Source: Paludibacter sp. (GTDB lineage Bacteria; Bacteroidota; Bacteroidia; Bacteroidales; Paludibacteraceae). From it: 64,000 nt of DNA. Position numbers and translations under genes: made by a program. Below, piece by piece: positions 24,753 to 43,435 of the stretch; the first letter of the stretch is position 1; each line of letters starts with the position of its first letter. Under the pieces are notes generated by a model. It was not told the DNA's origin, did not search any database, and saw nothing but the letters and a program-made list of their open reading frames with translations. The DNA lies in contig JAQTTH010000010.1 of the NCBI GenBank assembly GCA_028710895.1, positions 1-64,000 of the forward strand, written 5' to 3'.

Positions 24753-25329
24753 GTCGATAAAAATTAAGGATGGTGTGGTTTGTCGGTTGAAACTACATCA
24801 GGACAGGGTTAATAAAGCTTTTGCGGCTGGCTATCCTGATGAAGATATTTTAAGTCTTTTTGAAGTAATAAACCAATCTGTTATACTTCAATCAGGTATT
24901 TATAAATGTCGGATTGTGTATGATTCTGACCTAATTTCACTCGAAATTGCTCCCTATGTGCGTCATGAAATCAAATCTCTCCGCATGGTTGATACGGATA
25001 TGGAAAGTTATTCGTATAAGCAGGAAGATAGAACTCAGTTTAATGAAGCTTTTGCAAAACGGGGTGAGTGTGATGATGTTTTGTTGGTGAGAAATGGTCT
25101 TTTGACCGATACTTCTTATTCAAATATTGCTCTTTACGATGGAACTAATTGGTTTACTCCTCGCATTCCACTGCTGTATGGTGTAAACAGGGCCGAATTG
25201 CTCGAGAGTGGAAAGTTAATAGAAAAAGATATTGCTGCAACTGAGTTGAAGAATTACAAGCAGATAGCTTTATTTAATGCAATGATTGAGTTTGGTGAAT
25301 TGATATTGCCGGTAAGTCAGATTTTTTAG
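24736..25329 (+). CDS. pabC: Aminodeoxychorismate lyase-like class IV aminotransferase
   Basis: 197 residues, short for PabC (usually about 270) but similar to the compact form paired with pabB in Bacteroidota. Class IV features: RLKLHQDRVNKAF near the N-terminus, and VLLVRNGLLTDTSYSNIAL with TPRIPLLYGVNR near the C-terminus. The PLP lysine is probably in SYKQEDR. It would release pyruvate from aminodeoxychorismate to give 4-aminobenzoate. The start overlaps pabB by 17 bp and the end overlaps the convergent exporter gene by 4 bp. Confidence 0.85.
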   Translation: MCRFFESIKIKDGVVCRLKLHQDRVNKAFAAGYPDEDILSLFEVINQSVILQSGIYKCRIVYDSDLISLEIAPYVRHEIKSLRMVDTDMESYSYKQEDRTQFNEAFAKRGECDDVLLVRNGLLTDTSYSNIALYDGTNWFTPRIPLLYGVNRAELLESGKLIEKDIAATELKNYKQIALFNAMIEFGELILPVSQIF

Positions 25330-27572
25330 TTCTCAATTCGACTGTTTGCTGTTTGAAACAACGAAAAGTACTTTCCTTTTAAAGCCATCAATTCCTGATG
25401 TGTTCCGGATTCAACCACTTCACCTTCGTGAAAGAAATAAATCAAATCTGCCCACTGAACTGTGCTGAGTCGGTGGCTGATGATGACAGCCGTTTTATCC
25501 TTCGCTAGTTTTCTCAAGCTACTGATGATTTGAAGCTCAGCATCGGCATCAAGGGCACTTGATGGCTCATCCATCAGGATTAAGGGAGAATCCCTGTAAA
25601 AGGCGCGTGCTATGGCCATTTTCTGCCATTGCCCGATACTCAGTTCTTCGCCGCCTTTAAACAGGTTTCCAAGTAATGTATTGTACCCGTCGGGTAACCG
25701 CTCAATTACATCAGCAATTCCTGCTTCCTGAGCTGCTTTTCGGGCTTTTTCCATATCAATTGGGCTGTTGATATTTCCTAAGGCCAGATTGTCTATTGCA
25801 GCTAAATTGTAAAGTGCAAAATCCTGAAATACTGCAGTTATATGCTGGGTTATGCTTGTTTGACCGAGCAAACCTGCATCTACACCATCAAAAAGTATTT
25901 TCCCTGAATTAGGTTGATAGAAACCACAAAGCAATTTAATCAATGTAGTTTTTCCTGATCCATTAGCCCCTACAAAAGCAACCGTTTTTCCGGCAGGGAT
26001 AGTTATATTGATCGATTTTAAAGCATCTCTTTTACTGGATTCGTACCTGAAACTTGCATTTTCAATCCGAATTTCTTTCGTCAATGTAAACTGTGATTGA
26101 TTGTTTGTCACAGTAGCGGATCGGGTTGGCATATTTAGAAAGGCCATAAAATCATTCAGGAATGTATTGTCTTCCAAAATTTGGGTCAGTGACATAAAAA
26201 ACTCATTCAACACCCCATATCCCCGCTGAAAGGCGAAGAAGAACAGCACAACCGTTCCAATAGAGATTTCGCCCTTTATTTTCAGATAGGACACAAAACC
26301 CAATGATAAAAATATCAAAGAAACCGAGAATATCTGAGCAGCAATGTTGAGACTAAGTTCCGATTTACGTAGTGTAATTCGTTGTTCGAACAAAGTGTCC
26401 TGAACCGTTGAATATCGTTGTTTGAAAAAATTGAAGAATCCAAAAAGCTTCATTTCTTTTGCAAATGGAAAACCTGTCAGAATCCGGTTGAAATAATACA
26501 TTTCACGTTCCTTGGTGCTTTGAATTTCTTTCAGTTTGTATAATTTCCTTGAAAATTTCAATCGAATATACACACCCGGAATGATAGCAATTATAAGAAT
26601 CAGTATCAAATACCATTTTATTGATATAAACATGCCAACTAAAAACAGTGCAGAGGCAACTGATTTTATAGTTGTAAGTAATTCGTTGATTATCTTAATA
26701 GGACGGAATGAAGCTTCCTGTACAGCTCTATGAATTTTATCCTGTTCTGCAGGATTCTCATAGTGCGATAAGTCCAGCGAAGCATGTTTTCGGTGTAGTT
26801 TTTCGAAAACCTGACGCGTGATTGATTGCGATAATTTCTCAGAAAAATAGGATCTGATTTCGGACAAAACACCACTTGCCAGAAAAACAAGGGCTGTAAG
26901 TATTAGAAGAAAAACAAAATGGATTTGTTGGTTATCATTCAGGGCGGAGAGGCTTGTGAGATAATCGATCAGGGATTTTATGCATACAATAACAACAAAT
27001 GGTAATATGCCCTGAAGTGCCGAAATAACAGCATTGATAGAAAAGATTTTACCTGAACCTTTAGCCAGCAAAGAAACATTACTCCAAATAGACTTTAACA
27101 CTGTATTGAGTGTCTCTGTTTTTGATTTGAAAAGGAGTTGGATATTGTGAAAAGGTATAACAAAACTCGATAGATAGTTTGCTATGAAACGTTGTATTTT
27201 CATATACCGGCTATCTATACTAATTATTTTGTTTTTTCGTTCGAATGAAACCAGTTTTCCAACTAAAGCATCGCTTGTAAAAGGGGTATCTTTATATTGA
27301 TTTTTATCACCTTTGGCCGTGAAAACCTGATATTCATTTTTTTTTGAAATATCGATTAGTCTATGCGCCACAAGTTTGCCATGTGCTTTAAATATCACGA
27401 TATCACCAATTTTCAGTTCATTGGGTGAGCACTTTTCCACTTGTCCCAATTCTCCTGCTTTCAATGTAGGGTACATGCTGTTTCCCGCCATACGGAAACT
27501 CAGCGTATGATTGTCATCTAATAAGGACTCGGCAAAATCCAATAAATTGTTATTTATTGCCTCCTTTTTCAT
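25326..27572 (-). CDS. ABC exporter with fused N-terminal S26 signal-peptidase-like domain
   Basis: 748 residues. Residues 20-125 are an S26 peptidase domain: GNSMYPTLKAGE with Ser32, VAHRL with His70, and AKGDKNQYKD with Asp89 and Asp95. The Ser/His/Asp set resembles the archaeal and ER-type signal peptidase rather than the Ser/Lys type. Residues about 170-460 are the transmembrane domain. The ATPase has Walker A GANGSGKT at 535-542, signature LSIGQ at 644-648 (usually LSGGQ), Walker B LILMDEP at 664-670 and His700. This parallels exporters with fused C39 peptidases that trim leaders during export. Its start overlaps the kinase-like gene by 23 bp. Confidence 0.88.
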   Translation of the reverse strand: MKKEAINNNLLDFAESLLDDNHTLSFRMAGNSMYPTLKAGELGQVEKCSPNELKIGDIVIFKAHGKLVAHRLIDISKKNEYQVFTAKGDKNQYKDTPFTSDALVGKLVSFERKNKIISIDSRYMKIQRFIANYLSSFVIPFHNIQLLFKSKTETLNTVLKSIWSNVSLLAKGSGKIFSINAVISALQGILPFVVIVCIKSLIDYLTSLSALNDNQQIHFVFLLILTALVFLASGVLSEIRSYFSEKLSQSITRQVFEKLHRKHASLDLSHYENPAEQDKIHRAVQEASFRPIKIINELLTTIKSVASALFLVGMFISIKWYLILILIIAIIPGVYIRLKFSRKLYKLKEIQSTKEREMYYFNRILTGFPFAKEMKLFGFFNFFKQRYSTVQDTLFEQRITLRKSELSLNIAAQIFSVSLIFLSLGFVSYLKIKGEISIGTVVLFFFAFQRGYGVLNEFFMSLTQILEDNTFLNDFMAFLNMPTRSATVTNNQSQFTLTKEIRIENASFRYESSKRDALKSINITIPAGKTVAFVGANGSGKTTLIKLLCGFYQPNSGKILFDGVDAGLLGQTSITQHITAVFQDFALYNLAAIDNLALGNINSPIDMEKARKAAQEAGIADVIERLPDGYNTLLGNLFKGGEELSIGQWQKMAIARAFYRDSPLILMDEPSSALDADAELQIISSLRKLAKDKTAVIISHRLSTVQWADLIYFFHEGEVVESGTHQELMALKGKYFSLFQTANSRIEN

Positions 27573-28437
27573 GGGCTAGGACATAGTTTACAACACTTTC
27601 ATCCGGAACAAATCCAAGTTCGCAAACAGGAATATGCATGCATAAATCGCTGAAAAAGTTGAGACGGGATTGTATAAATTGTTTTTCAAAATTATTTTGA
27701 ATGCAAAAGGCCATTACTTTTGAAATGGCTAAAGCACCTGATAGTTTATTTAGTATGTTTTCCGGCGAATGACGAATCAAATAGATTGCACCCAAAGGAG
27801 CTCTTTTTGATATGTCTTTGTAATACATGGGTGTATTATAAACAAAATAACCATCTTCTTCCTTTCGGATAATAATTCGGTCGTCGTTTATAATCTGATT
27901 ACCCGCTTCCGACCAAAGTTTCGAAATTGTACTTTTGCCATTGCCTGAAAAACCTGTAAACAACCTGGCTTTAGTGCCATCGAATGCACAGGAAGCATGC
28001 ATCATTACCGCATCTGAATTAATTGTCAGATAGTGCATAATAATGGGCCCTAATGGATATTTTAAGGGGAAAAGACGATTTTCAGAGTTTGGTTTCGAAA
28101 ATACCATCCATTTTGTAAAGGATTTATCTAACACAGCCATCTGCTGCACCTTTCCGAGATTCTGTTGGTCGTAAATGAGAAATCCTAAATCATTTCTCGC
28201 ATGGAATATCGAATAGAATTTTTGGTCTTCATTTTCTGCTTCAAAAACCAATTCATCTTGTGAAAAAGGCCATATAGGCATATCATCGAAGCAACGGATA
28301 GTAATGTCTGCTTCGGTTGTTTTTTTATCTGATATAAATGGCTCATAACCTTCTTCCAATTCAAAATTAGAATTGGAATAAAGCATAATAGAAAAACCTG
28401 CAATATTTAAGTAAATCGTATTCTGTTGATTTTCCAT
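27550..28437 (-). CDS. HPr-kinase-like P-loop protein
   Basis: 295 residues. Walker A is GFSGNGKST at 162-170, followed by INDDR at 183-187, the layout of HPr kinase/phosphorylase C-terminal domains. The N-terminal 140 residues are an unrelated beta-rich region without a clear match. HPrK homologues occur in peptide-modification clusters, for example as peptide kinases in lasso-peptide tailoring, and in sugar regulation. No HPr gene is nearby, and the company of PqqD and a peptidase-exporter favours a peptide substrate; that is inference. It is 7 bp after the PqqD-like gene and overlaps the exporter gene. Confidence 0.8.
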   Translation of the reverse strand: MENQQNTIYLNIAGFSIMLYSNSNFELEEGYEPFISDKKTTEADITIRCFDDMPIWPFSQDELVFEAENEDQKFYSIFHARNDLGFLIYDQQNLGKVQQMAVLDKSFTKWMVFSKPNSENRLFPLKYPLGPIIMHYLTINSDAVMMHASCAFDGTKARLFTGFSGNGKSTISKLWSEAGNQIINDDRIIIRKEEDGYFVYNTPMYYKDISKRAPLGAIYLIRHSPENILNKLSGALAISKVMAFCIQNNFEKQFIQSRLNFFSDLCMHIPVCELGFVPDESVVNYVLAHEKGGNK

Positions 28438-28444
28438 AACTGAT

Positions 28445-28729
28445 TCATCGCTTTTTCAAAAACATGACTTCCAGATGATTTAAGAAATTTTCAATATCTC
28501 TGGATGCTGTTTCGCTGTCGATATCGAACGTTTCAGTCATTGAATTTTCCAGTTCTTCTAAAGTAGTTGTTTCGGTTATGTTTTCCCAAATAAATTTTGC
28601 TGTCTCGTTCATTGTAAACATTTCACTCATTTGAGCTACATTACCGGTTAGAGGGACCAGAATTAGTTCATTACCCACTTCACGGGCAACAAATTTCGAT
28701 TTCAGATTGTAAAGTGATTGAATTTCCAT
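28445..28729 (-). CDS. PqqD-like protein (RiPP-recognition fold)
   Basis: 94 residues. The pattern is that of the PqqD family: a short beta region, then MNETAKFIWENI, then acidic helices (TTLEELENSM, ETASRDIENFL). PqqD is a stand-alone peptide chaperone that holds the leader of a ribosomally made precursor for its modifying enzymes. No radical-SAM or cyclase gene is seen here. It is the first gene of a three-gene unit with the kinase-like and exporter genes, and has a -7 box 62 bp upstream. Confidence 0.85.
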   Translation of the reverse strand: MEIQSLYNLKSKFVAREVGNELILVPLTGNVAQMSEMFTMNETAKFIWENITETTTLEELENSMTETFDIDSETASRDIENFLNHLEVMFLKKR

Positions 28730-28790
28730 GAAATTTATTATTTGCTTATTAGCAAGTTGTTATAACTGATTGATATGTTTAGTATATATG

Positions 28791-28798
28791 CAAAGATA
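28791..28798 (-). promoter_or_regulatory. Candidate -7 box for the PqqD-kinase-exporter operon
   Basis: On the minus strand it reads TATCTTTG. I could not see a well-spaced -33 TTTG, so it is tentative. Confidence 0.45.
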
Positions 28799-28832
28799 AG
28801 TAAATTTTCAAATACACATACGATAAAATAAG

Positions 28833-28854
28833 AATCCCGGAATACTCAGGGATT
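28833..28854. terminator. Hairpin between the lyase gene and the PqqD operon
   Basis: AATCCC at 28833-28838 pairs with GGGATT at 28849-28854. A T-run follows on the plus strand and a weaker CTTATTTT on the minus strand, so it may partly terminate the lyase transcript. Confidence 0.45.
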
Positions 28855-28909
28855 TTTATTCATGTTGTGAGAAATAATTCTTACACAGTCAACCTGAGAA
28901 TGGACAGTA

Positions 28910-31900
28910 TTAATCAATAATCACTCTTTTTGTTGTACCATTATTGCCATTATTTGCAGTAACTATGTACATCCCCGGCTTTAAATATCCAATGACTGTA
29001 TGACTGTTCGTTATTTGCTTTGTAATCAGTTTCTGTCCTAAGATATTGTAAATAGATACGAAAGAAGCGTTACTAATATTGCCTTTGCAATTCACAGTAA
29101 TCTGATTGTTGCTGTCTTTGTTAATATCGATTGATTGGTTTATTGTTGAAGAATAGTCTGTTGTTATGCCTACTGTTTTAAAAACTATACTAAATCGATT
29201 ACCGGATGAAGTAACTTCTGATGTAAAACTATAGTTTGAGACATCAGTAAGTTCTGTTTCTTTATTCAACAGATCATCTTTCAAATAAACCCCTACAGTA
29301 TCAAAATTGCTGATTTCAGTAGTTTTAATGCTAAAAGTATTTGTCTCACCGGTTGTGAAACCTAATGGGATTGAATAATTTACGGATTCAACGCTATTTA
29401 ATCCATTTATAACCATTTTTTCCGACCCTGAATTTGTATATATTTCAGGCTGTGCAGCATTAGAATTACTCATTTTGTAAGAATCATAGGCATCAATCCC
29501 GTTTGAGGCATTGGCATTAAACAAAATTATAGCTTCATCGCTATTCACATCATTTGAAACAACCAGTCGTAACACTTTTTGATTTAGGTTCTGAATAGCC
29601 GGAACTTTGAAATTTATATCAGGAATAGTGACCCCTACGGTTTGGGACTCTTTGTGAGAGCGCATTGAATTCCGGAATGTGAGTGTGCCTAATGTGTCAT
29701 GTGCTAAAACCGGGGCTTTTACACGCACCCAGAATGCCTGCATGGGTGGAATGTGACAATTAATCTGTTCACCATTATTACTCGTACCCAATTGGCTTGT
29801 CGAATTATAAGTGTCGAAAACGTATGCAGTATTGCCAGCATTTTTTGTTCGATACCAAATCGTTGGTTCCAGATTTGATTTTTCGGCTGCATCCCAGTTT
29901 ACATATGATGGATATGGATTCCCAATCAAATTAAAACCACTTTTAGTAACACCATGTGTGCGGGTTAAAGATACTGTTTGATTTCCGTCGTTCAATGAAC
30001 CACTAAAGTTTACAGGACCACTTGTTTTTGTTGAAACCGCTATATATCCTTTCATGTGGGTGAGTGTTGCAGTTGCCGGTGATTTCCAGGTTGCGCTAGG
30101 TTCATCATACATAATAATTGCTTTGGCAGATGTACTCAAAGCTGAACTATCCACACCCGTTACCGGAATAGAAATGTACCAATTACGCCCGGAACTTAGA
30201 TACTGTTGTACAGTAGCCGATACAATCTGTCCATTTGCATTGCTATTTACAAAGGTGGCTGTGCCGGTATTATCACTTTTGATTTGAATCTTTGTTGAAG
30301 GTAGATTTCTACCCGAATTCAGACTTACTTTTGATCCCGGCATAAGAGCCAAATTAGACAGAGTGCCGGCTTTATCAATTGTCAGTAATCCATTGTCGAC
30401 GGTCAGATTGGCATTATCAGGAATTGTTGTTGCAGAATAATTATTGATACCTGATATATGGTGGCCTGTGTAGGTTAGTATTCCTGTTGATGGTTCGAAC
30501 GTATATCCCGGGCAATTTACAATGGAAAAACTCCCAGTGGAACTCCCGGCATAGACTATTTTTATTTTTGTACCAAGTTCAGGAGCTGAAGCTGTAACAT
30601 TAATATTCAAAGTTCCACCCCTGGTTAAAGCTCCTGAAACCGAAATTGAATCATGCTGTCCCTGTCCAAAACCACTGACTGAAAGATTGGTTGTTGAACC
30701 ACTATTCAGAGCCAGATTATTTCCAAAATGTAATTTCCCTTCCAAAATTCCGCTGATAGTCGTCAATCCACTTATTGTTCCCGTTCCGGATAATGTAGCT
30801 CCCTGACTAACTGTAACACCACCTTTTAAACAAGCTTTGTCTCCTAAACTAAGTTTTCCTCCGGTTATCAAAGTTGAACTTGTATAGAAACAGGTATCTG
30901 TAACAGTAAATGTTCCTGTTCCTACCTTTGTTAAGGCGTTACCTCTAATCTTTCCGTTAAAAACTGAACTGGAGTTTTTTGCACCGATAATCCAGTTAGC
31001 TCCTGATAACTCACTACCTACAACGCCTGCAAGTTCACCAATTGAAACAGAAGTGCCTGTAGTTATATGATATACATTGATACGACTGTCCAAAACATTG
31101 ATGGCAGCATTTGCATAACCATAATTGTTGCTAATTCTAAAATCCCCTGCAGTAGTTCCTTTTCCCTGCGAATCAAATAATAAATTCAATTGTCCTGAAA
31201 ACCCTGACCAGTTACCAAATAACGTGGTGCGAACATAGGGTATATACATATTCAGGGTTCCTGAACCGGTCAAACTTCCATAGTTATCACTCCGGTAATC
31301 CACATTATACCGTGATGTAGTTCCCTGTGGTATGATGAGATTAAAATAGGTACTGTTATACGAATCGCTACTGAAAAGAGAAAGAGTTCCTCCACTCAGT
31401 GTTACGTTCGTAGTCTGTGGTCCCATTCCGTATCGGTTTGCTGTATCATCACCCATAATCAACGTTCCTTCTTTGATCTCAACTCCACCAGCAAAAGTAT
31501 TTGCTTGTTGTTGTAGAGTGAGTGAACCTGCCCCCGTTTTAATCAGCCGACCACTTCCTGCAATCAATCCTCTAACAGTCATAAGCGCAGTGTCAATTGC
31601 AATAGTGTCGTTTGTGCCTCCTAATGTTATTCCTCTGTTTGTGTAAATTCCGGGTAATGATGCATAACGGAGTGTTGAGTTATTTAATGACAGGTAAGAT
31701 GGATCTGTAGAAGTAGTGGATCCTACTGAACTTTTTAATCCGGCATCGTCCAGATAACCTATTTCCAGACTTCCTCCGTTTACAATCGTTTTCCCTGAAT
31801 ATCCATTTTGTGTGAGAATTGTAAGCTTTCCATTTCCATTTTTTGTCAATCCTCCTGAACCGGTTATTGAGCCTGATCCGGTAAATTTAAAATTTGCTTT

Positions 31901-34870: not shown

Positions 34871-34895
34871 GTCTGATTGATTGGTATATTATTTA

Positions 34896-34934
34896 AATTA
34901 GCCCGAATTCTGTTTTACAAAATCCGGGCTAATT
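34896..34934. terminator. Hairpin between peptide 2 and the lyase gene
   Basis: AATTAGCCCG at 34896-34905 pairs perfectly with CGGGCTAATT at 34925-34934. No long T-run follows, so it may attenuate or protect rather than fully terminate. Confidence 0.5.
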
Positions 34935-35015
34935 ATACTTACTGTTTTCTAAGACAATTTAAAATTGTTTCAGAAGTTTTTTTTTGCGAACGCTTCTACG
35001 TTAATAACTTTTCCA

Positions 35016-35198
35016 TTATCCTACGTTTGTTTTAAACGGATCGTTGTTGAAGTATTCAGGAGCATTTGAACCCTTTACAAGTTCAAACATGGGTGGATTT
35101 GATTCCAAGGCCAATGAAATTTCATTATCCAGTTTAATTTGCTCAATTAATGGCGAGCTATAGGTACGTTTCGGAGTATTTTCTTTTGTTGTTTTCAT
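35016..35198 (-). CDS. Small conserved peptide 2 (candidate modified-peptide precursor)
   Basis: 60 residues, no cysteine, no signal peptide. The N-terminal half holds LIEQIKLDNEISLALES, then a PP pair, ELVKG, and PEYFNNDPFKTN close to the end. A paralogue at 40427-40600 keeps LDNEISLALES and PEYFNNDPFKTN identical although the large genes next to them differ, which shows it is a real protein. It starts 59 bp after the stop of the FG-GAP protein gene and lies between two hairpins. Having a conserved leader-like segment and a conserved short C-terminus near a PqqD-like gene suggests a RiPP-type precursor; no product is known. Confidence 0.75.
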   Translation of the reverse strand: MKTTKENTPKRTYSSPLIEQIKLDNEISLALESNPPMFELVKGSNAPEYFNNDPFKTNVG

Positions 35199-35221
35199 AT
35201 TGTATGTGATTTTAATCAGTT

Positions 35222-35249
35222 CCCCTTCTCTGCTTTGAGAGAAGGGAAA
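35222..35249. terminator. Hairpin between FG-GAP gene and peptide 2
   Basis: TCCCCTTCTCT pairs with AGAGAAGGGA around a short loop. It has no T-run, so it may stabilise the upstream mRNA end. Confidence 0.45.
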
Positions 35250-35257
35250 GTTGAATA

Positions 35258-38200
35258 TTAGTTAAGTATTACCTTTTTAGTTGTTGTTTTATTACCGTTG
35301 TTTACTGTAACTACGTAAACACCCGGCCTGAAACTGCTACTGATAATTGTATTGCTTGCAGTAATTTGCTGAGCAGACACTTTTTGGCCTAATGCATTGT
35401 AAACCGACACAAATGAATCGTTTATAGCACCTTTACAATTTACTGTAATCTGATTGTTAGCATTTTTATTAATAACAACAGCCTGATCAGTTGAAGCGTT
35501 GATACCGGTAGTAACGCCAGCCGCTTTAAATACAACACTAAAACGGGTAGTAGTTGAAGCAACATCCGAAGTGAACGTGTAGCTTGATGCATCAGTTAAT
35601 TCTTGTTCGGTATTCAATACATTGTCTCTCAGGTAAACTTTCATACCATCAAAGTTAGCAATTTGTGTAGCTTTGATTGAGAATGAATTAGACTGACCTG
35701 TTGTAAATCCAAGTGGCAATGTCTCTTCCGGAGTAACAACACTAAGACCATTGATAACTAACTTTTCAGTTCCTGCAATTGTATAGATTTCAGGAATAGC
35801 TGCATTAGCATTCGACATTTTTGGTGAATCGTAATCATCAAGACCATCCGAAGCATTTGGATTAAAATAAACTACTGCTTCATCAATGTTAGTTCCGTTC
35901 GAAACCTGAAGGCGCAAAACCTGTTGAGTTGCATCTGCCACAGCACGTGATTTCAATTTTAAATCTGATGCACCTTTATGTGAACGCATAGAGTTGCGGA
36001 ACGTCAATGTACCAGTTGTATCATTTGCCAAAACGGCAGGTTTAACGCGTACCCAGAAGGCTTGCATTGGTGGAATATTGCTATTTACTGTTTCACCATT
36101 TAAGCCTGTTCCAATTTGACCTGTGGCATTATAAGTATCAAATACATAAGCCGTAGCGCCTGAGTTCATAGAACGATACCACATGGTTGTTTCAAGGTTA
36201 GATTTCTCTGCAGCATCCCAACTTACATACGATGGGTATGGGTTGCCTACTAAATTGAAACCACTCTTAGTTACACCATAAGTGCGTGGTAATGTCACCG
36301 TTTCTTCACCGCTATTAAGTGCTCCTGAGAAAGCGACATTACCTGTTGTTACTGTTCCTGCCGAAATATAACCTTTCAACGGAAGTAATGAGCTTTCTGT
36401 TGAAAATTGGACAAAGGCTGCTGCAGGCTCATTATAATAATTAATTGTATTTGCAGAACTTAATGCCGAAGTGGTAGCCGTAGCAACCGGGCTTGAAACA
36501 TACCAGTTACGACCTGAAGTAAGATATTGCTGAACAGTTGTAGTTCCACTTACTGTTAATCCACTTGTTGTATTAGCATCTACAAATGTTGCTGTTCCGG
36601 TTGCATTACTATTAATTGCAAGGTTTCCATTTACTGTAAGACCATAACTGCTATTAAGTGTATACTTTACTCCCTGTTCAATAGTGAGATCACCATCTTT
36701 AGTACAGTTATTGTTAATTATAATATCTGTAGTTAATGTGCCTGGTAATCCCGCACTCCAATTTCCATATGTTGACCAGTTTCCTTCAGTATTGAAAGTT
36801 GTAGTCGTTGATGCAAGTGTTGCAAAAGTAACTCCAGCTCTTGCTGAATATTTTTCAAGTCCGGGTATACCATTATATGTACATGCTCTCACCTGGTATG
36901 AAGTATTGTACTTTAGTCCTGTAAAAGTAGAGAATGGATTAAAGTTTCCGTTACTCAAGTAGGAAGAATTACCATTATAGACACAATACCACCCCGATGT
37001 TTCAACCTGAGTACCTGAACCAAATACTGTATTTCCAGTGTAAGTTGTATTCGAAGCAACAGAAACATCTTCTAAAGCATCACTTCCTTCTTTGATAAAA
37101 ACAACAGTTGCATATCCAACATTTGGAGTGGTTCCTGATTGACTAGGTTTAATAGAGACTGTCGTAGTTGTTGGAAAATTCGTAGCTACTGTAAGTCCCG
37201 ATGTAACTGCTGAGGTAGGAACTACATAGTCTAATGAGGATAAAATAACGGGGTTATTTGTACTTGTTGTTGTTAAATAATTTATAATTGTATTATCTGC
37301 AGTTCCGTTATACGAGATGACCATAACCTGAAAATCTCTCTTTCCAGTCAATCCTGTAACAACGACAGATCCAGCTGAAAGTGGAGTAACTGGTCCATTA
37401 TATACACAATACCATCCAGAAGATCCAATTTGGCTACCGCTATTACCAAAAACAGTATTTGGAGAATATGCTGTATTTGCGCTTGGTGCAGGATAATCAC
37501 CTAAATTTGTACCTTCTTTCATGAAGACAGCCGTTTTATATCCATCACCATTTGTCCAACCCATTGTTATCGATGTTTGAGTTGCAGTCGTAGCAGAGAG
37601 ATTTATTGCTTGTGCAGAAGGAGTTGTTGTAGGACTTCCAATTGTAAATGTACCTTCAGTCGCCCAAGTTCCTGATACATAGGCAGCATCAACAGCCTGT
37701 ACGCTCCAGTAATATGTGCCATCCGCTAAGCCCTTGACATTTGCAGATGTCAGATTATATTTTCCAGGACCATAAATAGATGAAGTTAGGATATTAGAAG
37801 ACCCAGAGGTAGTTCCAATGCGTACATTATACGTCAGGCTAACGTTAGGCGTGTGATCATCAGCTGATGCTGGCATTGTCCAAGATATGGAAGCTACTGA
37901 ACCAGAAGGTATTGCGGTAATTGTACTTGGAGCTGAAGGTGCTGTATTTGCCGTTGCCGTTCCATTTAAATACACAATAGTTGCCGGAGTAGAAGCAGCC
38001 GCATCGCTATATCCAAAAGTAATTAAATCTGGTTTATTGTCTCCATTAAGATCCGCCCATACTTCACCTCCGTATTGTAAGCCTGTAAGTGTTAAGCCAG
38101 CACTTATAAATGTTGGTGTAGTGGTTTCTCCATTGTTTAAATACAAAACTGTAGTAGGTGTCGCCGTTGCCAATCCATGTATAGATAAATCCAAATCACC

Positions 38201-39241
38201 ATCATTATCATAATCTACAGCTGAAACAATTCCACTGCTAACATATGTTCCGTTAGATCCTAAAGGAGTAATCGAACCTGGAGCTGTACTTGTATTAGCA
38301 TATGTACCGGCTACAGTTGTTGTATTGATTGACAACTTAATTGCTGGAGCAGGTGTGCCTGATGAATTAATGTATGATTGGATGTAGTCAATTTTCCCAT
38401 CCTTGTTAAAGTCGCCATATACCATGTTTGAAGCCCTTGGTGTATTTGTTGTACCAGAATATGAAGTGTTTGTAAATGTACCTGTTCCATCATTAATGCC
38501 TTGGCCACCTATGTTTCCACCTCCATAAAATAAGTAATCAGGGTCGCCATCAAGGTCTAAATCTGCCATCAATGTTTGTCCATAAGCTGCTGCATTTGTT
38601 GGTATTGCAGAAGATGTAAAAGTGCCATTATTATTGTTCTTATACAGTTGAGTTATAGTAGTCCTTGCTCCTGATGAACCTGGGTAGGCTAAGGAAGTGT
38701 ATGTTCGTCCATGAATAAGCAAATCAAGGTCTCCGTCATTATCAACATCAGACCATTCAATAGATCCAAAATAACAACCTGTAGGAGCTGTAGTTCCTGT
38801 AAATGCAGCAGTTGTATTATTCGTAAATGTTGAGCCGGTATTTCTATATAAATACACTACGTTTGCTCCAGCAGTGGTACGTCCAGCATAGCAAAAATCT
38901 AATTTTCCATCTTTGTCATAATCAGCTACACCTATCATACCGCTGTTTACTGCGGTAGGGGTTGCAGGTGTTAACCAAGTAGCTGTTGCATCCGTAAAGG
39001 TACCATCTCCATTTCCAGTGTAAAAATTTATTATACATCCAGAAGTTGCAAAAGCAGCTGTTTGACCAACAACTAAAGCGTCAAGTTTTCCATCGTTGTT
39101 AAAGTCCGCAAACTTAATTTGTCCTCGCCCAATATTGGGCAATCCTGATGCGGTTACTGTTAACTGAGCATTTAGCATCCCAGTAGACATAACCAACATG
39201 CATAAAATAACGCATGCTTTAAATAAAGTAATTTTTCTCAT
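35258..39241 (-). CDS. FG-GAP/FN3 T9SS-exported surface protein
   Basis: 1327 residues. Signal peptide about 1-25 (ending GMLNAQ). Seven FG-GAP/VCBS-type repeats follow in about residues 30-430, each with a DxDxDGxxD-like loop, such as FADFNNDGKLDALVV, SDVDNDGDLDLLIHG and ADLNGDNKPDLITFG, suggesting a calcium-binding beta-propeller. A fibronectin-III-like domain (ITAIPSGSVASISWTMP) begins near 440, with further beta regions to about 860. The last 460 or so residues are the same C-terminal module found in the lyase and in the protein at 40662, ending in a T9SS type A tail (VSVYNALGQKVSAQQ, GVYVVTVNNG). It probably binds ligands at the surface; no enzyme domain is seen. Confidence 0.85.
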   Translation of the reverse strand: MRKITLFKACVILCMLVMSTGMLNAQLTVTASGLPNIGRGQIKFADFNNDGKLDALVVGQTAAFATSGCIINFYTGNGDGTFTDATATWLTPATPTAVNSGMIGVADYDKDGKLDFCYAGRTTAGANVVYLYRNTGSTFTNNTTAAFTGTTAPTGCYFGSIEWSDVDNDGDLDLLIHGRTYTSLAYPGSSGARTTITQLYKNNNNGTFTSSAIPTNAAAYGQTLMADLDLDGDPDYLFYGGGNIGGQGINDGTGTFTNTSYSGTTNTPRASNMVYGDFNKDGKIDYIQSYINSSGTPAPAIKLSINTTTVAGTYANTSTAPGSITPLGSNGTYVSSGIVSAVDYDNDGDLDLSIHGLATATPTTVLYLNNGETTTPTFISAGLTLTGLQYGGEVWADLNGDNKPDLITFGYSDAAASTPATIVYLNGTATANTAPSAPSTITAIPSGSVASISWTMPASADDHTPNVSLTYNVRIGTTSGSSNILTSSIYGPGKYNLTSANVKGLADGTYYWSVQAVDAAYVSGTWATEGTFTIGSPTTTPSAQAINLSATTATQTSITMGWTNGDGYKTAVFMKEGTNLGDYPAPSANTAYSPNTVFGNSGSQIGSSGWYCVYNGPVTPLSAGSVVVTGLTGKRDFQVMVISYNGTADNTIINYLTTTSTNNPVILSSLDYVVPTSAVTSGLTVATNFPTTTTVSIKPSQSGTTPNVGYATVVFIKEGSDALEDVSVASNTTYTGNTVFGSGTQVETSGWYCVYNGNSSYLSNGNFNPFSTFTGLKYNTSYQVRACTYNGIPGLEKYSARAGVTFATLASTTTTFNTEGNWSTYGNWSAGLPGTLTTDIIINNNCTKDGDLTIEQGVKYTLNSSYGLTVNGNLAINSNATGTATFVDANTTSGLTVSGTTTVQQYLTSGRNWYVSSPVATATTSALSSANTINYYNEPAAAFVQFSTESSLLPLKGYISAGTVTTGNVAFSGALNSGEETVTLPRTYGVTKSGFNLVGNPYPSYVSWDAAEKSNLETTMWYRSMNSGATAYVFDTYNATGQIGTGLNGETVNSNIPPMQAFWVRVKPAVLANDTTGTLTFRNSMRSHKGASDLKLKSRAVADATQQVLRLQVSNGTNIDEAVVYFNPNASDGLDDYDSPKMSNANAAIPEIYTIAGTEKLVINGLSVVTPEETLPLGFTTGQSNSFSIKATQIANFDGMKVYLRDNVLNTEQELTDASSYTFTSDVASTTTRFSVVFKAAGVTTGINASTDQAVVINKNANNQITVNCKGAINDSFVSVYNALGQKVSAQQITASNTIISSSFRPGVYVVTVNNGNKTTTKKVILN

Positions 39242-39624
39242 AAATAAATAGATTTAAAAAGGTGTTATAAATTTGGTTGTTTTTAAATTTCAAAATCAGG
39301 CAGACTTAAATAACTCAAAAGGATATTCCGATGAAATAAGTCAGGTGCAAAAGAAGTACATACAGTTATTTATTACAATGGAATTCTATTCATTTGTATG
39401 GATTATTATTCATTAAGTTAATGTGCAGTTTTTCAGCATGTTATGAGAGCAATTTGTGAGAGGATAAAATGTTGAGGCGGGTGGATAAATGTGTAACTAA
39501 AGAATTTGTAGTAAATAAGACTACGAAAAAAGAGGATTTATTGCTACTGATTTGTAGCTAGTTAGAACGGAAAAACAACCCCAAATATTCGGAAATGTTT
39601 TTCTGATTGAGTGTTGTTATGCTA
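39242..39624. other. AT-rich spacer upstream of the FG-GAP gene
   Basis: I see no gene and no clear Bacteroidota promoter here, although the promoter of the minus-strand FG-GAP gene must lie in it or further upstream. Confidence 0.4.
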
Positions 39625-39788
39625 TATGTGTTTTAAAAGAATTATTAATATTGAACTCCTGTAAATCTGTACTTTTTACAATTTAGTAAGCAAGTGAAGA
39701 CTCAACTGCCAGCGATATTTCATTATTAAGTTGTATTCGCTCTATTTTGGCGTGTGGTAATTGCTTTTAGTTGATTTTCTGTGTTCGT
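39625..39788 (-). pseudogene. Decayed copy of the small peptide gene
   Basis: The minus strand aligns along its whole length with the peptide gene at 40427-40600. The start codon has become ACG (39786-39788), there is a one-base deletion near codon 12, and the codon for Glu before LVK has become TAA. The LDNEIS region survives as a readable relic. It lies directly downstream of a decayed T9SS tail, the same order as the intact pairs. Confidence 0.75.
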
Positions 39789-39856
39789 AAATGATTTGTG
39801 TTTTTTTAGCGACTTATTGTATGATTTATATTGCTTGAAATATTTATTTTGACTAT

Positions 39857-40060
39857 TCAATTATTATCTTTTTAGTAACAGAAATATTTGAATTATTTAC
39901 AGTAATAAAATAAACTCCTACAGATAAATTGGTTTTGATTATTGAGTCGGCTCCTGCTATTTGTTTGTGTATTAATTCTTGGTCCGCTATGCCAAAAATT
40001 GGTATAGTTGAGTTATTGTATAATTTGCTGTTGATGCAATATCTGAGCTGAGGTTATTGA
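39857..40060 (-). pseudogene. Decayed T9SS C-terminal tail fragment
   Basis: The sequence from 39857 to about 40034 aligns with the 3' end of the intact gene at 40662, including the words ATTATCTTTTTAGTA and TTATTGTATAATTTGCTG. After that it jumps to sequence like 40966-40990, so an internal part was deleted. No open frame remains. It is the relic of a third T9SS cargo gene. Confidence 0.7.
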
Positions 40061-40127
40061 ACACAATTTGTATTCATTCGATGTTAGCGGATTATTCATT
40101 CTTTCAAAGCTTCCCGTAGTTGCTTGT

Positions 40128-40191
40128 TTGACCAGTACTGGTCAAGCTATTTGACCTATACTAGTCAAATATTTTGACCAATACAGGTCAA
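40128..40191. repeat. Palindrome array 4, three units at exact 23-bp pitch
   Basis: Three 18-bp palindromes with TTGACC and GGTCAA-like arms lie at 40128-40145, 40151-40168 and 40174-40191. The first, TTGACCAGTACTGGTCAA, is perfect; the others have central changes. Centres are 23 bp apart. The array lies between the decayed T9SS fragment and the strong palindrome terminator at 40291. Confidence 0.9.
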
Positions 40192-40290
40192 AGTGTCATA
40201 AACGAATTATGGTATCCTTGTAATAGGAACGAATGTGATCCTACGTGGTTTGTTTGCAGAAATGATGATACGTTATTTCTAATAGTAAAA

Positions 40291-40334
40291 AAGGAAGAGA
40301 ACTTGTCGGCCGACAAGTTCTCTTCCTTTTTATA
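40291..40334. terminator. Perfect 38-bp palindrome terminator after peptide 1
   Basis: AAGGAAGAGAACTTGTCGG at 40291-40309 is the exact reverse complement of 40310-40328. T-runs follow on both strands; on the minus strand it would end the transcript of the peptide at 40427-40600 about 100 nt after its stop. Confidence 0.85.
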
Positions 40335-40426
40335 GTGGTAGAAGAAAATAATTCATGCTGATTGAGTTAAAATACTCTTTCTTCCTATGCCTTTTTGATA
40401 GTCTTACACCTTTCGTGCAATTAGAA

Positions 40427-40600
40427 TCACATAATATTTGTTTTAAATGGATCATTGTTGAAATACTCAGGCATATTTGTATTTTTTACAAGTTCGTATG
40501 CCGGTGGAGACTCAAGGGCCAGGGATATTTCATTATCAAGTTGGATTCGTTCTATTTTAGGCGTACAGTAATTGCCTTTCAATTTATTTTCTGTGTTCAT
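40427..40600 (-). CDS. Small conserved peptide 1 (candidate modified-peptide precursor)
   Basis: 57 residues, opening MNTENKLKGNYCTPKIERI, then LDNEISLALES, PPAYELVK and PEYFNNDPFKTN, ending NIM. It is a paralogue of the peptide at 35016. It has one cysteine, near the N-terminus, and no signal peptide. It starts 61 bp after the stop of the T9SS gene at 40662-43295 and ends before a strong terminator, so it is probably transcribed with that gene. Retention of its last third and its middle, with changes elsewhere, points to selection at the protein level. Function unknown; a RiPP-type role is inferred. Confidence 0.75.
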   Translation of the reverse strand: MNTENKLKGNYCTPKIERIQLDNEISLALESPPAYELVKNTNMPEYFNNDPFKTNIM

Positions 40601-40661
40601 AATTTTTCTCTGTTTTTATTGATACCTAATAATTTATATAAATGAAAAATGATAGTATCAT

Positions 40662-43295
40662 TTAATCAATTATTATCTTTTTAGTAGTACTGTTAGTTGA
40701 ATTATTGACATGTACGAAATATACACCTGATAATAAATTGGTTTTAATTACAGAATCAGCTCCTGAGACTTGTTTACTCATTAGTTCCTGACCCATGGCA
40801 TTGTAAATTGTAACGGTTGAGTTATTGTATAATTTGCTGTTGTTCTTAATTGTTATTTGATTGTCTGCATTTTTGTAAACAATAACATCATTGTCAGCAA
40901 TCGTGTTAGTGGCTGTTGTTACTCCTACCGATTTAAACACAATACTAAATCTGTCTGCTGTTGATACAATATCTGAACTAAAGCTATAGGCTGTTCCAAC
41001 TGTCAGTTCCTGTTCGGTGTTCAGGTATTTGTCTTTCAGGATAATTCTGGTATTGGCATCAAAGTTATTTATTTCAGTTGCCTTGATTGAGAATACATTT
41101 GACTGCCCGGTAGTAAAACCTACTGGTAGTTCTGAATTTGTACTAACACTGTTTAATCCATTAATCACAACCTGCTCATTCCCGGCCAGTGTGTAAATTT
41201 CAGGGATTGCGGCTTTGGCATTTGACATTTTTGGAGAATCGTAAGCGTCAAAAGAATTCGAAGCGTTGACATTGAAATAAATAACAGCTTCATCGCTGTT
41301 TACGTCGTTTGATACCTGTATACGTAAAAGTTGTTGTTCAGTGTTCTTCAATGCCGGAGCTTTCAACGGATTTGCTGTACCACTGTGTGAACGCATACTG
41401 TTGTTTAATGAAAGTGTCCCACCTCCGGCATTTGCTCTTACCCAGAATGCCTGCATGGGTGCAACAAGTCCTGTAACCCCTATTGGAGTTCCAATACCGC
41501 CGGTTGCATTGTAAGTTTGAAATACATAAGCGCTTGATACATAAGTACGATACCAGATGGTTGTTAGCGTATTTGATGCAGTAGCAACGGCTTCCGACCA
41601 GGTAAGATGCGATGGATAAGGATTTCCAACTAAATTAAAACCTTCTTTCGTTTGTCCGCTTGTTCGGGTTAAAGCAATTGTTTGATTCCCCGTATTCAAT
41701 GCCCCGCTAAAATTGACTGTCACTCCTGTTTCTCCCACTGGTGCAACAGCAATGTATCCTTTTGCAGGAGTGAGTGTTCCGCTTTCGGTCGGCCACGGAG
41801 TTGTTGATCCATTAGGTTCATCGTAACTTACCATGGAAGTACCTGTAGTTGTATTTATTGAGCTTACTGTTGCTGCTGCTATCGGACTCGATATGTACCA
41901 GTTTCTACCGGTAGCCAGATATTGTTGCACATTCGTAGTAGTTGCACTCACAGTTCCATTATCTATAAATGTACCGTTTCCGGTTGCATTGCTTTGTATA
42001 TTAAAGGTGGTGGCAGTCAAAGTTTGGCCTGAGTTGAGTGTGAGTTTAGCACCCGGGTTGATTGTCACTGTTCCTGCAGTTAACGAAGTAGCAAGAGTAA
42101 CTTTTGCTCCGCTTGTTTTGGCAATAACCAGGTTGTTCATTGTGGCACCACCGGTGACATCAACTGTGGCATCGCTGCTTCCACTTAGTGTGATTGTTCC
42201 GCTTCCTGCAGTAAAACTACCAGCAGTTCGGGTCCAGTTTCCCTGAATTGTAAGATTTGGGGTATTGTTATTTAAAACCAACGTGCCACCATCAATAAGC
42301 AAATTACCGGTTGCCGTTCTGTTAGCGTTCAGGTTTACTGTGCCGGAACTGATTGTAATGTAATTGGGTACTACAGTAGTCGACCAGGAATTGTCACTTC
42401 CATTCACATCGTAGATTGCACCTGTTCCCTGATTAAATTTGAGAATCGCACTTGACCCATAAAAGCTTGTTGGAGGTGCAGTTGCTACATAACCTCCCGA
42501 TCCAACTTCTAATGTTCCTGTTACAGATGTTCCTGCGCCAAATGACGCACCAACATTACTGGATCCTGATGATTTATTGATTGCAATACGATCAAAATCG
42601 ATTGTACCTGCAATAGAGTGTATTGCATCTCCTGAACTTGGTGCTCCGGTAAATATAACTGTATTGCCTCCGGTACCATTAGCCCAGGTTCCACTATTTG
42701 ATAATGTTGTTGCAGAGCCAGCTGTTGATTTCGAAATTGTTATAGTTCTGGCAGTATTATCACTGGCAGTAAATGTTGCACCCGAATTGATAGTTAATGA
42801 ACCTACTGTTACCGCCTGATCAAGTGTGATATTGTGAGCAATTTTGAAATTAGCAGATTGTGACGATGGAACAGAGCCATCGCACCAACTTGAGGCGGAA
42901 CTCCAATCCCCATCTGCTGCAGTAGTTGGATTAACAATAAATGAGAAATTGGCTCCCCCATTGTTTAAATACATACTTCCTGACCAATCATCATAACCAT
43001 GAAAATAGCACAGGCAATTGTTTGAAGAGTTTATTTTTTGTGTAACCGACCAAACGCTGTTTCCTGAATTATTCCCACTATAATTCATTTGGTATTCTGT
43101 CCAGGTTGCACCGCCATCTATCGATACGCCTACTTTACAATGCAAACCTACATAATCTTGATTTTGCCAGACACTTAACGTTACATCCTGAGATGAAGTG
43201 CTCTGAATGTAAGATTGATTTCCCATCCATGAAGGGAAGGCATGCATAATGATTGAACAGGAAATGAATAATCCGAGTAAAATTTTCTTTTTCAT
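40662..43295 (-). CDS. T9SS-exported surface protein, unknown N-terminus
   Basis: 877 residues from the ATG at 43295, which starts a clear signal peptide (KKKILLGLFISCSIIMHAF); an upstream ATG at 43331 would put the leader inside. Residues about 25-125 (WQNQDYVGLHCKVGVSIDGG with WTEYQMNYSG) look like a carbohydrate-binding-type beta domain, unassigned. Residues about 130-400 are Ser/Thr/Gly-rich beta repeats. From about 430 is the C-terminal module shared with the two other giants, ending in a T9SS type A tail (VTIYNAMGQELMSKQ, GVYFVHVNNS). A TACATTTG -7-like box lies at 43329-43336 on the minus strand. Peptide 1 follows. Confidence 0.83.
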   Translation of the reverse strand: MKKKILLGLFISCSIIMHAFPSWMGNQSYIQSTSSQDVTLSVWQNQDYVGLHCKVGVSIDGGATWTEYQMNYSGNNSGNSVWSVTQKINSSNNCLCYFHGYDDWSGSMYLNNGGANFSFIVNPTTAADGDWSSASSWCDGSVPSSQSANFKIAHNITLDQAVTVGSLTINSGATFTASDNTARTITISKSTAGSATTLSNSGTWANGTGGNTVIFTGAPSSGDAIHSIAGTIDFDRIAINKSSGSSNVGASFGAGTSVTGTLEVGSGGYVATAPPTSFYGSSAILKFNQGTGAIYDVNGSDNSWSTTVVPNYITISSGTVNLNANRTATGNLLIDGGTLVLNNNTPNLTIQGNWTRTAGSFTAGSGTITLSGSSDATVDVTGGATMNNLVIAKTSGAKVTLATSLTAGTVTINPGAKLTLNSGQTLTATTFNIQSNATGNGTFIDNGTVSATTTNVQQYLATGRNWYISSPIAAATVSSINTTTGTSMVSYDEPNGSTTPWPTESGTLTPAKGYIAVAPVGETGVTVNFSGALNTGNQTIALTRTSGQTKEGFNLVGNPYPSHLTWSEAVATASNTLTTIWYRTYVSSAYVFQTYNATGGIGTPIGVTGLVAPMQAFWVRANAGGGTLSLNNSMRSHSGTANPLKAPALKNTEQQLLRIQVSNDVNSDEAVIYFNVNASNSFDAYDSPKMSNAKAAIPEIYTLAGNEQVVINGLNSVSTNSELPVGFTTGQSNVFSIKATEINNFDANTRIILKDKYLNTEQELTVGTAYSFSSDIVSTADRFSIVFKSVGVTTATNTIADNDVIVYKNADNQITIKNNSKLYNNSTVTIYNAMGQELMSKQVSGADSVIKTNLLSGVYFVHVNNSTNSTTKKIIID

Positions 43296-43435
43296 AAATA
43301 CTATATTTAAAGGTTGAATTAAGAAATACAAATGTATATTCTATTGGTATTGAATGTAGTATTTTTTGTGAAATAATTTAAAATATCTGTCGCAAACGTT
43401 TGCAATTCAGGTCCGAAATGTATTGTGGGGAAAAT

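Follow-up and report, generated by a model that had tools for sequence, protein, structure and literature searches.

Precursor peptides gene-paired with type IX secretion cargos in Paludibacter sp. point to a probable maturation and export system of the linear polyphosphorylated peptide type

The window analysed here comprises 64,000 nt of Paludibacter sp. (positions 1 to 64,000 of contig JAQTTH010000010.1, assembly GCA_028710895.1). Its minus strand encodes three cargo proteins of the type IX secretion system (T9SS) alternating with two small peptides, followed by a PqqD-like protein, an HPrK-like kinase and a fusion of an S26 peptidase with an ATP-binding cassette exporter (S26-ABC). This arrangement was described in an original prediction and is confirmed. 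The locus probably represents a maturation and export system of Bacteroidota for ribosomally synthesized and post-translationally modified peptides (RiPPs), of the type known from linear polyphosphorylated peptides (LPPs). Its precursors are gene-paired with T9SS cargos, and the core peptide would act with a C-terminal module of the cargo. Judged from genome co-occurrence, the peptides are very likely the substrates of the PqqD-HPrK-S26/ABC set and tied to T9SS cargo, as originally proposed.

Peptides A (57 residues, 40427–40600; like all window features below, on the minus strand) and B (60 residues, 35016–35198) are 68% identical to each other, and no Pfam or NCBIfam model matched them at an E-value of 1. 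Homologues are present on other contigs of the home genome (4.9 Mb, 41 contigs) with E-values down to 2e-19. Differences between the leader codons of the eight intact copies of this genome, summed over 28 pairs, fall mainly on third codon positions (133, 95 and 315 at positions 1, 2 and 3); 254 of 387 are synonymous. Fisher values from this comparison take no account of kinship. Thus, the window peptides are more than chance open reading frames (ORFs).

The leader consensus is YxxPx[IV]xx[IV]x[LI]DxEISLx[LM]xS, followed by a C-terminal core. In 56 distinct peptides, all of which hold [YF]..P by selection, position 12 is Asp without exception (partly selected in those from the second pattern only); 52 have Ile at position 15 and 52 have Leu or Met at position 19, and position 21 is occupied by Ser (53) or Thr (two). 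These statistics exclude peptides of other kinds (L128 of genome G405, L174, L178, L185 and L186). The Ser/Thr ending the leader and the leader Tyr are the only near-universal hydroxyl residues. The C-terminal part depends on the lineage: many Paludibacter copies carry EYFNNDPFKTN, and NPL[KR]WW[KR], DPLMSIKAFKIFK or FNPLKFFK are found elsewhere. Within the home genome, leaders share a mean identity of 77% and cores one of 59%.

Peptide A lies 61 nt behind cargo 1 and peptide B 59 nt behind cargo 2. Cargo 1 (40662–43295) has 877 residues from an inner ATG and combines a C-terminal module of about 430 residues (40665–41954), a member of the peptide-paired clade described below, with a type A sorting tail. 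Its ORF opens at 43331 and yields 889 residues from a TTG (40662–43331), the in-frame ATG leading to 43295. Cargo 2 (35258–39241, 1327 residues) contains FG-GAP repeats and the same module. Cargo 3 (28910–34870, 1986 residues), a rhamnogalacturonan lyase of family 11, also carries the module. The T9SS sorting domain TIGR04183 scores above its NCBIfam cut-off on all three cargos, which places them in T9SS type A; Por_Secre_tail is above the Pfam cut-off on two of them and below it on the 1986-residue cargo (24.4 vs 27).

Pairing of peptide and cargo extends over the home genome. Nine peptide matches, eight intact and one decayed with a stop, are spread over seven contigs, and most copies lie away from the maturation operon, so that linkage to the operon is not required. 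In 20 wider stretches, holding copies from the home genome and nine other genomes of the family and covering part of the 33 matches, a module cargo lies upstream on the same strand at a distance of 9–148 nt for 23 of 23 peptide ORFs; among these cargos, that of L050 runs into a contig end and that of L040 has a weak module match. A search of the home genome with profile A7 gave nine full modules, one decayed copy and five tail-only matches, and no further protein with the full module. A peptide or its remnant stands behind nine of the ten module loci (eight full ones and the decayed one). Cargo 3 is the only full module of this genome with no detected peptide behind it: the PqqD-like gene comes next instead, and a peptide was searched for in the gap between the two and none was seen. 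Scoring of 150 of 217 candidates shows at least 150 T9SS tails in this genome, including the ten module loci; no peptide match (E 0.001) was found at the other 140 scored tails.

No terminator-like hairpin is found between cargo and peptide in the eight intact home-genome pairs, and a hairpin of -10 kcal/mol or better follows the peptide in four of them. This pattern fits a joint transcript of cargo and peptide. The passengers of the module cargos vary and include rhamnogalacturonan lyase, FG-GAP, Shr-like haemoglobin-interacting and cadherin-like domains; one module cargo (L032, 4352–9520) contains three Shr-like haemoglobin-interacting domains (PF07550, 9e-48). A fold search with the module gave no convincing whole match. 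One match over 75 columns is to the T9SS substrate tail 8glk_D (TM 0.79 by target) and presumably covers the C-terminal end of the module.

Across genomes, 43 of the 56 distinct peptides follow a module cargo at a distance of no more than 160 nt, 15 have PqqD/HPrK genes nearby on the same strand, and 53 show one or the other. The module superfamily itself is widespread and was found in 216 of 395 genomes of the class sample at E 1e-20, with at most four candidates scored per genome. Thirty of its loci were fetched from this sample: 11 have a peptide behind the module, 16 do not and three end within 36 nt behind it. A tree was built from 33 paired modules and 17 others; the pairing label changes twice on it, compared with 14.4 times in shuffles (0 of 500 as low). 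This tree omitted two loci cut by contig ends (L266, L282) and six already present, and it counted L286 as unpaired, its contig ending 36 nt behind the module; L281 forms a very long branch. Without L281 and L286 a single change remains (13.0 shuffled, support 95). The alignment was reduced from 32 rows (A8) to 28 (A9) by leaving out L040, L125, L148 and L180. Since the label changes are far below those of the shuffles, the paired modules make up essentially one clade. A general reading of the module as a domain specific to the peptides is rejected, the superfamily occurring in 216 class genomes with only one clade paired. Peptide-cargo fusion was rejected as well: the G220 and G245 matches fall within an unrelated ORF of 421 residues and a receptor-like ORF and were not counted. 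In G508 a divergent YxxP peptide (L267) follows a module cargo; weak PqqD and kinase matches, the only ones in that genome, lie near each other on another contig.

The peptide also keeps company with the kinase. In the class sample, 27 genomes hold some kinase match at 1e-3, ten of them a strong one (below 1e-50), and the peptide is present in nine of these ten. The exception is G334, an 83% complete genome in which the module cargo runs into a contig end. Peptide matches occur in 15 of the 395 genomes, two of them false; the match in G405 has no module cargo and is a peptide of a different look. The family sample (150 genomes) contains 63 genomes with some kinase match, 14 of them strong (below 1e-95, the next at 1e-24). 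All 11 peptide genomes from the first search of this sample carry the strong kinase. A twelfth, G010, was found with a profile; its peptide lies 142 nt behind a module-like cargo cut by the contig, and the peptide is thus present in 12 of the 14 strong-kinase genomes. Within the genus, peptide and kinase occur together in 8 of 8 genomes vs 0 of 5; the five without peptide gave no kinase match and two of them gave weak PqqD matches near 1e-4. The original prediction named co-occurrence of peptide and enzyme set as its check, and these counts bear it out. Peptides usually lacking the enzyme set, which it took as evidence against itself, were not found, three genomes with no detected kinase or PqqD being the exceptions. 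Its other refuting condition, an operon that always adjoins an unrelated precursor family, does not hold either.

The enzyme set consists of three adjacent genes. The PqqD-like protein (28445–28729, 94 residues) is a predicted discrete RiPP recognition element (RRE) that matches Pfam PqqD (PF05402) at 2e-15 and, as a profile against the PDB, TbiB1 at 4e-10; its fold model most closely resembles leader-bound TbiB1. Outside the window (contig C10, 88325–88486), the home genome has another, weak PqqD-like gene that adjoins, by eye, ATP-grasp-like and response-regulator-like genes. The kinase (27550–28437, 295 residues), a single-copy gene in the home genome, matches PEPCK_ATP at 3e-7, Hpr_kinase_C weakly (0.16) and an HPrK structure only at E 0.009. 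Its His147, Lys168, Asp185 and Asp186 are invariant in 11 of 11 sequences and form the His-Lys-Asp-Asp motif named in PMC9266682.

The S26-ABC protein (25326–27572, 748 residues), the gene of which overlaps the kinase gene by 23 nt, joins an N-terminal peptidase of the SipW/Sec11 type to an exporter membrane domain and an ATPase. ABC_tran matches at 4e-28, Peptidase_S24 with 23.6 bits (cut-off 23.3) and Peptidase_S26 below its cut-off. The best NCBIfam model for the exporter part is MsbA (3e-84, below its cut-off). The peptidase domain matches SEC11C at E 1e-3, and a freestanding S26 relative matches TIGR02228 at 3e-10, below the cut-off of that model. The triad Ser32-His70-Asp89 is invariant in 17 of 17 sequences, as in LppS. 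No membrane helix was seen by eye ahead of the S26 part. Cyclase, radical-SAM and dehydratase proteins, which the original prediction reported as missing, are indeed not found among the locus proteins scanned with Pfam and NCBIfam. PADLOC matches of the exporter (best mad3, 3.5e-30, ATPase part) and of the kinase look like generic ATPase matches, and a role in antiphage defence was rejected; PADLOC gave no match for PqqD or the peptides.

A mechanism can be proposed in which the parts, the catalytic residues, the RRE fold model, the co-occurrence and the one-to-one pairing within the clade are drawn from sequence, and RRE binding, phosphorylation and leader cleavage are modelled on LPP. The RRE would bind the YxxPx[IV] part of the leader and the kinase would phosphorylate the peptide. 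The S26 domain, given the RRE-bound leader, would cut after the near-invariant Ser/Thr that ends it; the cut is placed there because the leader end LxLxS resembles IxFET of LPP. For the steps that follow, we infer that the fused exporter would carry the core to the periplasm, coupled cutting and export being the simplest reading because S26 and ABC are fused. In the periplasm, before or during T9SS export, the core may act with the module of the cargo encoded upstream, as a ligand, a subunit or an attached group. In its fullest form the proposal is tentative: every T9SS cargo of one clade would be served by a ribosomal peptide of its own, which the shared operon would mature and which, in the periplasm, would bind or be joined to the module, giving a modified peptide in a surface protein.

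A hint at the role of the core comes from G336, where four tandem peptides that are little more than leader adjoin PqqD (L111, 12300–12800 of contig C5). By eye, they end at the leader-end Ser/Thr or at most two residues from it. This genome keeps PqqD, kinase, S26 and a nucleoside triphosphate (NTP) transferase, and no cargo module was found in it at E 1e-20. Leader-only peptides in a genome with no detected module suggest, from this one case, that the core matters for the cargo.

Several observations weigh against the proposed system. The G336 peptides are ill-suited to a cut at the leader-end Ser that releases a core. The core has no Ser at +3, the residue phosphorylated by LppK in LPP, and the Glu of LppA at -2 (position 20) recurs in no more than 20 of the 56 peptides. 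The home genome has two NTP transferase copies, neither linked to the operon. Two family genomes (G072, G089) have the kinase and no peptide match. Three genomes of the class sample (G240, G304, G418) have peptide and module cargo and no kinase or PqqD match, and are either real exceptions or gaps. The kinase of G140 reads with one internal stop. The cargos next to the L040 and L180 peptides align poorly to the module. Peptide and module distances in the home genome correlate (r 0.80, p 0.005), which is in favour of the system but may reflect co-duplication only. Profile A7 was built from the nine home-genome copies and finds them by construction, and the other module profile was likewise trained on the same loci; the informative result is the lack of a full match at any other tail. 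The two unlinked NTP_transf_5 genes (L255 and L256, contigs C24 and C39) lie, by eye, next to sugar-transferase-like genes.

Related loci place the enzyme set in a wider setting. A kinase-profile scan of titled genomes, where titles of metagenome bins may be wrong, kept 80 loci of at least 96 confirmed. The best 43 of the 80 contain PqqD, kinase and S26 in 40 cases, an ABC exporter in 25, the peptide in 20, NTP_transf_5 in 18 and an S26-ABC fusion in 12. The fusions belong to 12 of the 13 nearest loci; elsewhere, including L143, which is titled Paludibacter, S26 is a separate gene. Six loci (L149, L154, L161, L162, L171, L172) have the order PqqD-peptide-kinase-S26, four of them with a module cargo upstream. 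The 37 weaker loci (L173–L209), with titles that include Omnitrophota, Aminicenantes and Terriglobia, contain the PqqD-HPrK-S26 triad in 24 cases, often with NTP_transf_5, and the cargo module in one; the triad loci appear to be LPP-like loci outside Bacillota. Cys-bearing YxxP peptides of another kind occur in four of the 37 (L174, L178, L185, L186). To our knowledge, no T9SS is expected in most phyla named in these titles.

These distant loci favour the strongest alternative, in which the product is a free secreted RiPP, a processed phosphopeptide that leaves the cell to serve as a signal or antimicrobial, with a cargo that is merely co-expressed and has no physical partnership with it. RiPPs are commonly free products, and the LPP paper assigns its product no role (PMC13381572). 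A free product, however, does not need eight similar cores that each follow a cargo of their own, all of these cargos sharing the module, nor would it explain why pairing is confined to essentially one module clade. A free RiPP is therefore possible, though unlikely. In another alternative the peptide is not a substrate at all but a cytoplasmic helper of the module cargos, e.g. a secretion chaperone or regulator, and the enzymes act elsewhere. Most peptide copies do adjoin a cargo rather than the enzymes, and the three genomes with pairs and no detected enzymes agree with this view. It is nevertheless improbable: lasso and LPP leaders bind the RRE through YxxPx[L/V/I], several loci have the peptide gene between those of PqqD and kinase, and peptide and kinase co-occur in two samples. 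Passive hitch-hiking of the peptide on a duplicating cargo segment would suit the home-genome pairs, which are tandem or dispersed duplicates, one decayed, but is highly improbable given intact pairs in several families with conserved leaders and, outside the home genome, modules only 27–46% identical to those of the window, mostly synonymous leader codon differences in the home genome and the PqqD-peptide-kinase order elsewhere.

The proposed cargo-paired system is closest to LPP, the "linear polyphosphorylated peptide" RiPPs of the lpp cluster of Paenibacillus alginolyticus, published in May 2026 (PMC13381572). According to that paper, these RiPPs are restricted to Bacillota, a SipW-like peptidase cuts the RRE-bound precursor after FET, the HprK-like kinase adds several phosphates to core Ser3, and the role of the product was stated as unknown by its discoverers. 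Both systems share a SipW-like leader peptidase with a Ser-His-Asp triad, a discrete RRE, an HprK-like kinase, an MsbA-like exporter, an N-terminal YxxPx[VI] leader with a variable C-terminus and the lack of a cyclase; an NTP transferase is linked in some relatives. They differ in several respects. The host here belongs to Bacteroidota, the precursors are dispersed and paired with T9SS cargos, and S26 is fused to ABC in the nearest relatives. From the LPP motif YxxPxVLxHQxIxFETxxS the present leader retains YxxPx[IV] and lacks HQ and FET; the stretch from Tyr to the proposed cut is five residues longer, and Ser+3 is absent. The NTP transferase belongs to the LPP core cluster and lies outside the window operon here. 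Because precursor motif, host phylum and NTP transferase linkage do not agree, the system is a variant of LPP and is not filed as a member. Its enzyme set, judged by sequence, is of the LPP kind and the chemistry is probably not new. The earlier description of the set as undescribed does not stand, a set of the same kind with a YxxP leader having been published, and categorically new chemistry, also envisaged there, is rejected since the LPP enzymes are already on record (PMC13381572).

Phosphorylated lasso peptides (paeninodin, Bsf, pseudomycoidin; PMC9266682, PMC10368454) likewise combine a discrete RRE, a YxxPxL leader motif (Bsf) and a His-Lys-Asp-Asp kinase, with an NTP transferase in some. 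The macrolactam cyclase and B2 leader peptidase of lasso systems were not found here among the locus proteins scanned, no genome-wide search having been made. A cargo with a dedicated partner is also known from T9SS type B, where PorP/SprF-like shuttles take this part (PMC12618676); here the partner is a peptide of about 50–80 residues with a RiPP-type leader, and the cargo tail is type A. The layout of the exporter has a parallel too.

Peptidase-containing ABC transporters unite an N-terminal C39 cysteine peptidase, an exporter and an ATPase in one chain. The S26-ABC protein has the same one-chain layout with a serine S26 domain in place of C39. In the open-licence literature, no paper linking T9SS with PqqD or a lasso peptide was found; among the matches listed, no title or abstract start joins RiPPs and T9SS more widely, and no S26-ABC fusion transporter was met. 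Five of the papers listed contain both 'type IX secretion' and 'RiPP', and one matched an S26-type peptidase transporter. The terms 'S24', 'S26' and 'secretion system' are not in the text of a RiPP survey of Bacteroidales. As far as searched, three features are new: the pairing of one peptide per T9SS cargo, the S26-ABC fusion, and precursors that lie scattered in the genome while a single operon would mature them.

The window contains further traces of the pairing. Between 39623 and 40050, overlooked earlier, lies a decayed third cargo-peptide pair: a remnant of a cargo C-terminus with T9SS tail (39856–40050) and a peptide copy with one stop (39623–39751). A perfect 36-nt hairpin followed by a T run (40284–40327, -25.9 kcal/mol) is located 99 nt behind peptide A and is probably the terminator of the cargo 1-peptide A unit. 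TAnnTTTG is a Bacteroidota promoter element. A hairpin and then a similar motif are visible by eye at 28790–28870, between the lyase cargo and PqqD, and suggest that the PqqD operon has a promoter of its own. Sequence scans gave no excess over chance for promoters (60 vs 62.0 in shuffles) or terminators (11 vs 12.5); the terminator scan missed the long palindrome behind peptide A.

The locus links a RiPP-type leader system with type IX secretion, two fields not joined in the literature among the matches listed. It offers a candidate setting for the LPP peptide class and adds loci of this sort outside Bacillota. The idea can be tested directly, thanks to the one-to-one pairing, the lone maturation operon and the S26-ABC fusion. 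If true, a RiPP pathway would serve protein secretion, and a modified peptide would be part of a surface protein.

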